Shown piece after piece: positions 12,477 through 31,373 of a DNA stretch of 45,544 nucleotides. The number at the start of each line of letters is the position of its first letter. The first letter of the stretch is position 1. Under the pieces are notes generated by a model. That model saw nothing but the letters and a program-made list of their open reading frames with translations. It was not told the origin of the DNA and made no database searches. Position numbers and translations under genes: made by a program. The stretch is from Actinomycetota bacterium (lineage in GTDB: Bacteria > Actinomycetota > Actinomycetes > Nanopelagicales > Nanopelagicaceae): contig CANLEG010000004.1 in the NCBI GenBank assembly GCA_947489605.1, forward strand, positions 1 through 45,544. Direction: 5' to 3'.

Positions 12477-12550
12477 TATGACTGGTGGGAATCGAACCCA
12501 CGACCTTCCTCGTAGTCAGTGAGGTGCTCTATCCGCTGAGCTACAGTCAT
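12477..12550 (-). tRNA. tRNA; anticodon by position GAC (Val), assignment uncertain because of an atypical anticodon arm
   Basis: Minus strand ATGACTG TA GCTC AGCGGATA GAGC A CCTCACTGACTACGAGG AAGGTC GTGGGTTCGATTCCCAC CAGTCAT: acceptor, D and T arms intact. Confidence 0.8.
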
Positions 12551-12673
12551 ACGCATGCGAAAATTAGCCCTGATTACATTCTGTTAAATTTTTTGAAAAC
12601 GATTTTGTGAATAAAGATCAGTTGTGTAAAAAGAATTGCAATCAGCCCAAAAGTTGATGTTAAGGTTCATCCG

Positions 12674-22646: not shown

Positions 22647-23873
22647 TTACCGCGTCATTGAAACAATTTTTATATTTCCACCAACGCTTGGCAAATACTC
22701 AACAAGAAATGAGCCCAAACTTTCCATTTCGACAAAAGATCGGGCGACAAATTCGAGTTTTGATATTGATAGTTGACCTACTTTTTCTCTCATTTTTGCA
22801 ATTCGATTTTTTTCAATTTCAAAGAGTTTTTCTCCAAATTCTGCCCTCTTTTTATCTGAAATATTCTGCAGTAATTCGTCCTTATAGGCTCCATCAATTC
22901 CGCGTAAGAACATTTCTACCTGCTCATTTTGTGCCAAATCTTCATACCAAACAAATTCTGGCGTAGTTACTTTCGCTAAAGTTGCCCGTGGACTATTCGC
23001 AGCGTGAGGTCGCAATTCTATTTTTATGGCACTTGGAATCCACTCATCTTCTCCATACCCAACGAAAAGCAATCTTGCGAGCTTTTCCGCATCTGGGTGA
23101 TTGAATAAATATGGAACAAGAAGTTCCATTATAAGTGCGTGCCAATCAATATTTTCGTCAAATTCAAAATTAAAAACATCTTCAAAGCTAGTTCTTACAT
23201 GATTTCCGTAAATTGCCACCATCTCTACTGGGTTTTCAATTTCACTTCGACTTTGCGCCCATTCTTCAAGAAATTTTAACTTTCGTAAGGGTTCACTGTC
23301 CTCGGTTTCATCGCTAAGAAGGGCATGTTTAACGTATTGAGGGAGTTCATTGCCATAAACATTTATTGGTTCCAAACCTCGCCATAAGTTGATCATTTCA
23401 ATTATATAGAGAGAAATATTCTCTGAATTTCGCTCTAGTTCATCTTTAAAATTCATAAGAATGGGCCGAATCCTTGTAGGTAATGTGTCCTCAAATGTTT
23501 CCAGGTTAGGTAGACCTGCATTTTTATAAAATTCAAGAAAATTTAATGCGTAATCTCCCATACGTGGGAATGGTTCCCCTAGGGTCTTGCCCCACTTATT
23601 CAAGATTGCATTAATTGGAATCAGATTAATTGTTGCTAACCCTGCAGTTGCGACGGCAATTTTATGTCCTGGAATTTCAATTATTTTCTCAGCTGTATCG
23701 GTCCATAGAGTTTGATTGATTCCTTGATTGTCTGGTTCGGTAATCGACACACTTTCATCTGCAGCGAGCGCAAATCCAGTAGTATTCCAAACCATAAATA
23801 TTGCTGTCATGGCAAAATCATTCACGAGATTGTTTGTTTTGTCACTCCCCTCTGCTATCTTTTCCTGGGTCAA
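22647..23873 (-). CDS. proteasome-beta/HslV-like Ntn hydrolase with long C-terminal extension
   Basis: MTAIFMVWNTTGFALAADES…AEKIIEIPGHKIAVATAG; Thr23 as T1 places Asp39 at D17 and Lys63 as the K33 equivalent. Confidence 0.65.
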   Translation of the reverse strand: MTQEKIAEGSDKTNNLVNDFAMTAIFMVWNTTGFALAADESVSITEPDNQGINQTLWTDTAEKIIEIPGHKIAVATAGLATINLIPINAILNKWGKTLGEPFPRMGDYALNFLEFYKNAGLPNLETFEDTLPTRIRPILMNFKDELERNSENISLYIIEMINLWRGLEPINVYGNELPQYVKHALLSDETEDSEPLRKLKFLEEWAQSRSEIENPVEMVAIYGNHVRTSFEDVFNFEFDENIDWHALIMELLVPYLFNHPDAEKLARLLFVGYGEDEWIPSAIKIELRPHAANSPRATLAKVTTPEFVWYEDLAQNEQVEMFLRGIDGAYKDELLQNISDKKRAEFGEKLFEIEKNRIAKMREKVGQLSISKLEFVARSFVEMESLGSFLVEYLPSVGGNIKIVSMTR

Positions 23874-23939
23874 GAAATCAAGCGTTAAGCCCTTCGGCTA
23901 GCTTGATACCAACCGCGCTAACCGCGCACGGTGGTTCCG

Positions 23940-24191
23940 ATGGAAGACCTGCTGGCGTTGAAACTCACCGTCAGAAGAGCGGATCTTCTGTTTATGGGGT
24001 CCATTAAGGGCTGGTTTGTTATGAGCGAAATAAATAGTGGGGCTGAACCAAAAAAATTCTTCTTCCCGATTCCAGAAGGATTTTCCAGTTTCACCAAGGA
24101 GCAAAGGGCGGAATACGCGAATGCTCTGTTCGAATTCATGCTTGCTAAGCACATCAAGCCTGAGAATGGTGATGTCAGTGGGGACAATTAG
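23940..24191 (+). CDS. small hypothetical protein (MEDLLALK…)
   Basis: 83-aa ORF preceded by two hairpins. Confidence 0.4.
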   Translation: MEDLLALKLTVRRADLLFMGSIKGWFVMSEINSGAEPKKFFFPIPEGFSSFTKEQRAEYANALFEFMLAKHIKPENGDVSGDN

Positions 24192-24221: not shown

Positions 24222-25070
24222 GTGGAAGAGAACAGATTTATTGATGATGGCGAAGGCATGGTTTGGCTTGAGAAGAAAGAATCAAAGTTCAAGTTGGTCG
24301 TGCGCAAATTTCTAATTCCATTTAAGTTCTTTAATCGTGGTGCAAAAAGATTTGCTGGCGCGATTGCGATAGTTGCATTGTTGCTGGGTGGTGGTGGTGT
24401 GTATCTAGGTATTGGGCCATATTTGAATTACAACAACACTGATCCTGAAGATGATGGCTATGTTCAACCAAGAGGGCTGCAAAATTTGGTTTCTCGAGTC
24501 CTTGAATCAACAGTCACGATTACTTGTGATGCAGATGAGGATTTTTTTACACAAGGCAGTGGTTGGGCGATTGATTTACCGATTAAAGATAAGAAAAAGT
24601 ATTTATCGGTGATCATTACAAATCATCATGTTATTGAGGATTGCATTGGCAACAAAGGTGAGTTGAGAGTTAAAACTTACTTTGGCAATGATTATGTCGC
24701 TGATGTTGATCGTTGGGATAAGAAGAATGACTTAGCTGTTGTGATGACCGAAGCAAAGGTAGAGCCGTTGTCGCTTTCCCAAGCAATTCCATATCCAGGT
24801 TATTGGGTTATGGCTGCGGGAACCGCGGATGGATACGAAGGATCTATCTCATTCGGAAATGTTTTAAATGGCACCGATACTGAGGTTTTGATAACAGCCC
24901 CTGTGTCTCATGGCAATAGTGGCGGGCCACTTGTTGATAACGAGGGAAATGTAATTGGAACTAATACTTGGAACCAAGAAGGTGAGCAATACAACGGGGC
25001 ATATTCGTTGGATGCGATGTGTAAGAAGATTATGAAATGCAAAGGCAAGTTTTATTGGTCACGTGATTAA
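24222..25070 (+). CDS. membrane-anchored trypsin-like serine protease (S1C-like)
   Basis: TM near N-terminus; ITNHHVIEDC (His), KKNDLAVV (Asp), SHGNSGGPLV (Ser); GTG start. Confidence 0.85.
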   Translation: MEENRFIDDGEGMVWLEKKESKFKLVVRKFLIPFKFFNRGAKRFAGAIAIVALLLGGGGVYLGIGPYLNYNNTDPEDDGYVQPRGLQNLVSRVLESTVTITCDADEDFFTQGSGWAIDLPIKDKKKYLSVIITNHHVIEDCIGNKGELRVKTYFGNDYVADVDRWDKKNDLAVVMTEAKVEPLSLSQAIPYPGYWVMAAGTADGYEGSISFGNVLNGTDTEVLITAPVSHGNSGGPLVDNEGNVIGTNTWNQEGEQYNGAYSLDAMCKKIMKCKGKFYWSRD

Positions 25071-28502: not shown

Positions 28503-28623
28503 GGGACTCCTTACTTGGACTCGGCTTGAAGTTTAATACTTGGCCCTTGGAAATAGCTTCCATAAACAGCTTTTTGTTTTCCACATTTCGTTAGCAACAA
28601 AAAATATCAAAGTTAGCACCAGG

Positions 28624-28902
28624 TTAGTTTTCGCCTGCCCGTTTCTTTCTCGAAACAAGTGAGCACGCCGCCAGCGTTCACTCACTTGATTTCCCTGCTA
28701 ATCGCAGGGGATTTCGAGAATGGAGGATGTTATGGATCTTGGAAACGCAATCGCAGTTACTGCGATTATGGCCAACATTATGATTGCAGTCATAAGTTGG
28801 CTAATCGCTCATCGTAAGAAACGATGAGAGTAGGCAGTACCAAATCCCTCTAACGGAGGGTAGGTGGCTCGGGAAGAAATTCCCGGACCATCTGGCGAAA
28901 GC
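28624..28902 (+). ncRNA. putative structured RNA element copy 1 with embedded sORF
   Basis: Helices at 28647-28720, 28808-28828, 28846-28860, 28864-28893; closing tttcgcc (28629-28635)/ggcgaaa (28894-28900); homologous to 29846-30124. Confidence 0.7.
28732..28827 (+). CDS. 31-aa hydrophobic micropeptide (MDLGNAIAVTAIMANIMIAVISWLIAHRKKR)
   Basis: GGAGG SD; TM plus basic tail; position conserved in second copy. Confidence 0.6.
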   Translation: MDLGNAIAVTAIMANIMIAVISWLIAHRKKR

Positions 28903-28961
28903 GTATCTTAAGAAATGGCTTTGCAGTTGAATTCTTAACAAATATTGCAAACTACTTTAAG

Positions 28962-29768
28962 TTAAACAGTTCGGGAACCGATTAATTCTCCCGCTGCATT
29001 TACTAACAAAACTACATCTAGTAGTGCCACCAACATAAGAAGCTTGAAGAGAATAAATTTCGGGGCAAAGATACTTAGCGTTGCAGCGATGATTCCGATT
29101 ACAAGGATTGGCGTATTTGCACTTGCGCTATTTAGAACAATTGTGGCTGCGATAAGAAATGTTGCCGCGATAAGCCTTGATGGGATACGGCCTAAAGTTA
29201 TTGGAAGGCTTTGGATTCCACTTGCTTTATCTTCCCTAAAATCTTTCAAAACATTTGCGAAGTGCGCGGACATACCAAGTAGGCCGCCGGCCCAAAGTAA
29301 CCACAGTGGTGGTGTGCGATCGGTAGAGATAACGAGAGCTGCTGGCAGAAGTGCAAAGGCAAGTGCGTAAGGAATTGGCGAGAGCGCAGTTGGCTTTAAG
29401 TAGAAGTTATAAGCAACACCGATCCCGATACCCAGAATAGAAATTGATCCAGCCTTTAGCCCAAGTGGGCCAAGAAGATTTACGAATAATGCAATTGGCA
29501 TCATGATAAAAATTGCACGCTTTAATTCCGCTGGTTTAAGTGCGCCAGAAACCAATGGCTTGTTGTTTCGATTATGTTTTAAATCATCGCGGAAGTCGTA
29601 GAGATCATTGGTCCAACCGACTATTAATTGACCTAGGAAAATACCGAATGCGATTATAAACGCGGGGCCTTCCCACCAAAGTTGGGTAGCGAGCAAGAAA
29701 GTAACTGTTGTTACAAGAAGCGTTGGACCAAAGTGAGATGCAACTAAAAAGCCTTTAATCTTGACCAT
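28962..29768 (-). CDS. UbiA family prenyltransferase
   Basis: GWTNDLYDFRDDLKHNRNNKPLVSG and LKDFREDKASGIQSLPITLG Asp-rich motifs; start MVKIKGF preferred to the track start at 29909. Confidence 0.9.
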   Translation of the reverse strand: MVKIKGFLVASHFGPTLLVTTVTFLLATQLWWEGPAFIIAFGIFLGQLIVGWTNDLYDFRDDLKHNRNNKPLVSGALKPAELKRAIFIMMPIALFVNLLGPLGLKAGSISILGIGIGVAYNFYLKPTALSPIPYALAFALLPAALVISTDRTPPLWLLWAGGLLGMSAHFANVLKDFREDKASGIQSLPITLGRIPSRLIAATFLIAATIVLNSASANTPILVIGIIAATLSIFAPKFILFKLLMLVALLDVVLLVNAAGELIGSRTV

Positions 29769-29845
29769 AGCTAAGAATAATTGATTAACAGTTTTAAAGT
29801 ATCCACATTGACAGTTGAAAAAACTTTTCCAAATTTCTTGCCGGG

Positions 29846-30124
29846 CTAGTTTTCGCCTGCCCGTTTCTTTCTCGAAGCATGTGAGCACGCTCGCCAGCGT
29901 TCGTCTCACTTGTTTTCCCTGCTAACCGCAGGGGATTTCGAGAAAGGAGGATGTTATGGATTATGGAAAATGGATTGCATTCATTGTGATCATCGCCAAC
30001 TTGATACTAGCTATCTTGCACTGGCGATCGGCCTACTAGCGCGAACTGGTAGGCCCGTTACCAAAATCCCTCTGACAAAGGGTAGGTGGCTCGGGAAGAA
30101 ATTCCCGGTCCATCTGGCGAAAGA
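29846..30124 (+). ncRNA. putative structured RNA element copy 2 with embedded sORF
   Basis: Same helices as copy 1, with compensatory changes in the post-ORF hairpin. Confidence 0.7.
29956..30039 (+). CDS. 27-aa hydrophobic micropeptide (MDYGKWIAFIVIIANLILAILHWRSAY)
   Basis: GGAGG SD, same location in element copy 2. Confidence 0.6.
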   Translation: MDYGKWIAFIVIIANLILAILHWRSAY

Positions 30125-30187
30125 TTACCGCAAACAAAACTAATTAAGTAAGAAAACCTTGCAAAATCACTAACTACTTTAAGTTAC

Positions 30188-31335: not shown

Positions 31336-31368
31336 TTCCAAAAGATTTCCAAAAGATATCCAAAAGAT
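31336..31368. repeat. three tandem 11-bp units ttccaaaagat/atccaaaagat
   Basis: Read directly; upstream of the minus-strand gene at 31308. Confidence 0.8.
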
Positions 31369-31373
31369 ATCGC

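Follow-up and report, generated by a model that had tools for sequence, protein, structure and literature searches.

The toxins of the Ldr/Fst and TxpA/BsrG (Hol_Tox) groups are short peptides with a single transmembrane segment and a charged C terminus. Sda of Bacillus is a small regulatory protein with DnaA boxes at a DnaA-controlled promoter. Sequestration of the Shine–Dalgarno sequence (SD) has been called a hallmark of type I toxin mRNAs, and the AapA/IsoA modules of Helicobacter combine a peptide of about 30 amino acids, an upstream anti-SD hairpin over the SD and an antisense gene that overlaps the mRNA (PMC6733600). A 2025 paper states that, until its own cyanobacterial case, reports of type I systems had been confined to Proteobacteria, Firmicutes and Tenericutes; that case, msoT1/msoA1 of Microcystis, is a candidate type I module found de novo outside these classical phyla (PMC12390103).

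Here we describe twin elements in a stretch of actinobacterial DNA of 45,544 nucleotides (the window). On balance, we consider each copy to be a type I toxin–antitoxin-like cassette that is unrelated to described families, a reading held with moderate confidence. Each would be a stand-alone cassette of about 390 bp behaving like a type I toxin–antitoxin locus. Its promoter, with a DnaA-box-like sequence as the activator site, would drive a structured mRNA in which an upstream anti-SD would hold the SD in a stem; the membrane peptide of 27–39 amino acids would stay silent before processing or remodelling of the RNA. The antitoxin would be a cis-antisense RNA covering the mRNA and transcribed from a second, opposite-strand promoter at the RNA 3′ end, and an MtrA-type box beyond the antisense promoter may set the antisense level. 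Transcription of both strands, toxicity of the peptide, antisense action and the binding of DnaA and MtrA are parts of this reading that we infer.

The twin elements and their distribution

Copies A and B (positions 28624–28902 and 29846–30124 of the window) are 79% identical overall and 93% identical in their 3′ modules (Table 1). The preliminary description had placed two copies of about 280 nt at these same coordinates, and both fold far beyond shuffled sequences: the folding energy is -124.5 kcal/mol for copy A (z -9.56) and -119.4 kcal/mol for copy B (z -7.35), with 0 of 200 dinucleotide shuffles as good in either case. ORFs of 31 and 27 codons, respectively, lie 5 nt downstream of GGAGG. 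An Rfam scan of both copies returned nothing at gathering level, with chance-level matches only (E 3.7 or worse). Elsewhere in the window are a SAM-IV riboswitch match (73.2 bits; 23868–23985, plus strand), with an ORF start at 24222, and an 11-bp unit, TCCAAAAGATW, present three times in tandem (31337–31371).

Table 1 Features of copies A and B, in window coordinates
Feature	Position	Strand	Comment
Copy A DnaA-box-like 9-mer TTTTCCACA	28577..28585	+	NTWTNCACA at fixed spacing in 30 copies; 39 bp before the -10
Copy A -10-like TAGTTT (TAnnnT)	28625..28630	+	
Copy A structured 5′ module (SD-sequestering stem around two hairpins)	28633..28729	+	Covariance-model match and covariation
Copy A Shine–Dalgarno GGAGG	28722..28726	+	Predicted partly paired with upstream anti-SD; less hidden than in other copies
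Copy A micropeptide ORF, 31 aa MDLGNAIAVTAIMANIMIAVISWLIAHRKKR	28732..28827	+	In-frame purifying selection
Copy A 3′ module with GAAA-loop hairpin	28842..28901	+	
Copy A -10-like TACGCT at RNA 3′ end	28900..28905	-	Candidate antisense promoter; T1, A2 and T6 kept in 14/14, middle three vary
Copy A direct-repeat box TTAAC-N5-GTAGT (MtrA/OmpR-type)	28951..28965	-	
Copy B DnaA-box-like 9-mer GTATCCACA	29799..29807	+	
Copy B -10-like TAGTTT	29847..29852	+	
Copy B structured 5′ module	29855..29953	+	Covariance-model match and covariation
Copy B Shine–Dalgarno GGAGG	29946..29950	+	Predicted mostly sequestered; unpaired probability ~0.0-0.1 over core, 0.38 at last base scored
Copy B micropeptide ORF, 27 aa MDYGKWIAFIVIIANLILAILHWRSAY	29956..30039	+	
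Copy B 3′ module	30064..30123	+	
Copy B -10-like TAATCT	30122..30127	-	
Copy B direct-repeat box GTAAC-N5-GTAGT	30173..30187	-	

By nucleotide search, 9 of the 27 genomes in the genus have copies, one of them as many as six. A covariance model of the 5′ module, and then a second model that included divergent matches, detected the element in 28 of 298 genomes of the taxonomic family (4 of 17 genera) and nothing outside it in an even draw of 297 genomes of the class. A peptide profile (E <= 0.01) raised the total to about 50 of 298 genomes in five genera, a count that takes in the weakest dozen or so matches (E above ~1e-4) without one-by-one inspection. Profile matches in five genomes of the class outside the family (E 5e-4 to 7e-3) were judged to be chance, four of the five lying inside long open frames; neither the covariance models nor the profile gave anything convincing beyond the family in this class-level draw. 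The public contigs with matches are titled lake metagenome assemblies, one of which is labelled Bifidobacterium breve, a public label that looks wrong (locus L021). These lake titles and genome sizes of mostly 0.8–2 Mb together suggest the freshwater acI group (Nanopelagicaceae). Phage and plasmid records, and viral contigs scanned with exact patterns, contained no match to the element. DNA methyltransferases lie near the elements at two loci (L066 and L069), together with a restriction enzyme at L069. Four further loci (L222, L223, L224 and L225) represent more subfamilies with the same architecture and other 5′ modules, for example MKILDWLSLITAIGKLVYLAIEIRNARRGNDGR and MYGIENWLMFIVAISKLVLEYVEKRKARRSNDEPTS.

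The preliminary description was right about the object and its resemblance to type I loci, and missed the multi-genus family, the geometry of DnaA box and -10, the direct repeat, the minus-strand -10 and the truncated copies, which together are the informative evidence.

RNA structure and micropeptide

The 5′ module is built around a long stem between the SD and a pyrimidine tract upstream of it; two hairpins lie within this stem, and one of them bears the nearly invariant CGCCGCCAGCG. Across 30 distinct sequences, 94.8% of the alignment cells pair and double changes occur at 18 of 34 pairs; the cell count is 116 against 34.5 in shuffles, and 0 of 500 shuffles attain such values. For the second subfamily, the whole RNA was assessed as a structure of 57 pairs that includes a coding-region hairpin and a closing GCC/GGC stem. 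Double changes are present at 22 of the 57 pairs (0 of 500 shuffles), and the closing GCC/GGC is invariant (16/16). Because the DNA alignment of this subfamily (A5) misplaces part of the 5′-module helices, the covariance-model alignment (A3) was used for that module. In the subfamily of the window, the coding-region hairpin also co-varies (ATCGCA..TGCGAT, ATCGCC..GGCGAT and ATTGCA..TGCAAT). A divergent subfamily (L063, at G273 C2:744151, and L061) is without the CGCCGCCAGCG loop, and its 3′ hairpin is followed by a T-run, making a proper terminator.

Partition-function folding gives an unpaired probability near 0 for the SD core in most copies tested, and the same result was obtained with the nascent 5′ part alone. 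Hiding of the SD is less complete in copy A, where the first two GGAGG bases are mostly unpaired in the prediction. The SD is occluded in silico, as in type I systems, and partially so in copy A.

These results bear on several readings made by eye from the two copies. Helices 1–3 and 6 are supported as read. Helix 4, the post-ORF hairpin, is built from different sequences in different copies, and helix 5 is predicted by folding with a sequence that is nearly invariant among copies. A long-range stem, tttcgcc/ggcgaaa, had been proposed to close the whole element; it co-varies in L010 and partly in L027, but is broken in L009, L046 and L029, and its TTT overlaps the putative -10 (TAGTTT), so the stem has only partial support and was overstated in its full length. 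The proposal of a structured RNA encoding a hydrophobic micropeptide in a type-I-toxin-like organization is borne out, and now extends to about 40 intact homologues with covariation. A covariance-model search with a covariation check had been suggested for this purpose; it recovered homologues in which the helices are kept, and Rfam gave no match. The absence of any known class holds against Rfam, Pfam, NCBIfam, PHROGs and PDB.

All intact copies examined carry an ORF of 27–39 codons located 5–10 nt past the SD. The ORF is under purifying selection: pN/pS in frame is 0.47 for the 31-aa type and 0.59 for the 39-aa type, compared with 1.14–1.51 in the other frames, the 27-aa set of three sequences being too small for a judgement. 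The peptides have a hydrophobic core and a polar or basic C terminus, and the core ANLIL of the 39-aa type (VAIANLILRVWEMRK) recurs in the type found in copy B. The statement that the RNA modules are better conserved than the peptide is correct between copies A and B only; across genera, the peptide is under purifying selection and keeps a core A-[IL]-A-N-L. As in type I loci, the ORF encodes a small (<60 aa) hydrophobic peptide. Searches of Pfam, NCBIfam and PDB gave no match, and PHROGs gave weak matches at chance level only; none of the profiles of known type I toxin families (Fst, Hok, TisB, Hol_Tox, Ldr and others) matched. This lack of sequence relation to known type I toxins in Pfam, NCBIfam, PHROGs and PDB counts against the type I reading.

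Candidate promoters and regulatory boxes

In 30 copies, an NTWTNCACA box precedes a TAnnnT hexamer at a spacing of exactly 39 bp (27 copies) or 38 bp (3 copies), and this geometry is present even in the very divergent subfamily of genome G273. Exceptions are L005, in which the box is present and the -10 mutated, and L017, which also deviates. The same 9-mer, TTATCCACA, occurs in the dnaA/oriC regions of seven genomes and is the DnaA-box consensus given in PMC8203912. At motif level, the box at the promoter (TTATNCACA) matches the oriC boxes of the genome, as in a DnaA regulon, and DnaA would bind there.

The same promoter is found on other genes. In the window, an unusual accessory tRNA-Val-like gene (12477–12550, minus strand; loop CUGACUA, U37) has a box-N39-TAnnnT promoter (12561–12613, minus strand) as in the micropeptide elements, and is followed by the trailer GCACACCAAATGRC and a terminator. 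Seventeen such tRNA-like genes were collected in related loci, often near micropeptide elements. That this is a general tRNA promoter was rejected, as only 1 of 20 and 2 of 31 tRNAs in two genomes have it, those being accessory. An ORF resembling a secreted protein has a box-N39-TAnnnT promoter in two genomes (L106 and L112).

On the minus strand, a TAnnnT hexamer abuts the RNA 3′ end in all 14 copies of the window's subfamily (register set by eye), in the variants TACGCT, TAATCT, TAAGAT, TAGGCT and TATGCT, which differ in the middle three bases. This candidate antisense promoter lacks an obvious -35 and is harder to discern in the second subfamily; a scan with the sigma-70 consensus gave matches no more frequent than chance. 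Beyond it, a distal box, G-T-N-A-C-N5-GTAGT, lies at a fixed distance in most copies, two intact copies being without it (L008 and L029). The box is close to the Streptomyces MtrA consensus quoted in PMC13189361: relative to the repeat GTnAC-n5-GTnAC, the first half-site fits and the second is mostly GTAGT, with perfect repeats in L040, L043 and L057. An MtrA orthologue is encoded in 7 of 7 genomes tested, and MtrA may bind the distal box. The orientation of the direct repeat differs between subfamilies, and the target of the box is therefore uncertain.

Cassette unit, decay and relation to known systems

Genomes G010 and G016 differ at one site by the presence or absence of a unit of about 390 bp that starts immediately upstream of the DnaA-like box and stops shortly past the direct repeat. 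Two sites next to the UbiA gene in the window's genus are occupied by ORF types that vary among genomes, indicating that the types replace one another. The elements are multi-copy and patchy, and are without linkage to any partner gene.

Beyond contig-end effects, 20 copies are degenerate (L013, L014, L016, L018, L188, L192, L207–L210, L212, L213 (=L214), L215–L221 and L226). All have lost the promoter, the 5′ module and/or the start but retain the 3′ half, nearly all together with the minus-strand promoter region and the distal box. In several, the breakpoint is no more than about 10 nt from the start codon, and L188 matches L042 except for a deletion that arose in place. The reverse loss, with the 5′ module kept and the 3′ module gone, was seen in 0 of 33 copies with a 5′ module, contig ends aside. 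Because some deletions may be shared by descent (L217, L220 and L221), independent events are fewer, perhaps 15. This asymmetry is what a toxin–antitoxin locus predicts, since loss of toxin expression is viable and loss of the antitoxin is not; a 5′-truncating insertion mechanism is a less likely source of it.

The purifying selection on the peptide, the retention of 3′ halves alone and the fixed DnaA-box promoter would also suit a dual-function or regulatory RNA, encoding a benign small membrane protein (an AcrZ/MgtS-like regulator) under replication control, with the 3′ half kept as an sRNA. We regard this as unlikely, although it is the strongest of the alternatives: the elements are patchy, multi-copy and unlinked to a partner gene, losses concentrate on the translation start, and the putative cis-antisense -10 is conserved in the window's subfamily. 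Retrotransposition was considered because of the 5′ truncations, and is disfavoured. A mobile structured-RNA element (MITE- or retroelement-like) truncated by its insertion mechanism, with the ORF as passenger, would account for the multiple copies, the empty site, the intact 3′ ends of truncated copies, the tandem arrangement in L216 and the two boxes in line in L215. However, the insertion unit includes non-transcribed DNA on both sides, neither terminal repeats nor a target duplication were recognized, no reverse transcriptase or transposase is linked, the ORF is under selection, and some truncations are deletions inside a syntenic copy (L188 versus L042), which makes such an element improbable. 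Restriction-modification genes near some copies might point to an effector peptide of the bacteriocin, holin or phage-defence type instead of an addiction module, but the lack of an export or immunity gene and of matches in viral contigs, phages or plasmids renders this very improbable. A riboswitch or leader-peptide attenuator, which the SD-sequestering structure could evoke, is rejected as contradicted by context: the gene that follows each copy in the window is encoded on the other strand, there is no co-directional downstream gene, and neighbours vary among genomes.

If the type I reading is true, this would be the first such system in Actinobacteria, judging from the literature found, because PMC12390103 limits earlier cases to three phyla. 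A family in about one-sixth of the genomes of apparently streamlined lake actinobacteria would extend type I to Actinobacteria, and its truncated copies would form a natural deletion-derivative series testing toxin–antitoxin logic. More tentatively, the cassette may be a replication-coupled module, with DnaA as activator of the micropeptide mRNA and MtrA, a regulator of cell envelope and cell cycle, setting the antisense RNA, their balance reading replication against envelope state; this is possible, though we doubt it more than the type I reading itself. Such a module would be linked to the replication initiator through a promoter of fixed 39-bp geometry, and the accessory tRNA-like genes would be a companion family driven by the same DnaA-box promoter.

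Among known systems, AapA/IsoA shares the peptide length and the upstream anti-SD over the SD, and would share the overlapping antisense gene, with no sequence similarity; in the window the anti-SD stem encloses two extra hairpins, the promoter has a DnaA box, and the antisense RNA is putative. The peptides resemble those of Ldr/Fst and TxpA/BsrG (Hol_Tox) in being short and single-TM with a charged C terminus, but have no match in Pfam, NCBIfam or PHROGs, and the RNA is different. With hok/Sok the elements share a structured mRNA, a hidden SD and, presumably, cis-antisense logic, whereas peptide length and sequence differ and a mok-like overlapping frame is not conserved. The family is also unrelated to msoT1/msoA1 and to Sda, which is not a membrane peptide encoded in a structured RNA.
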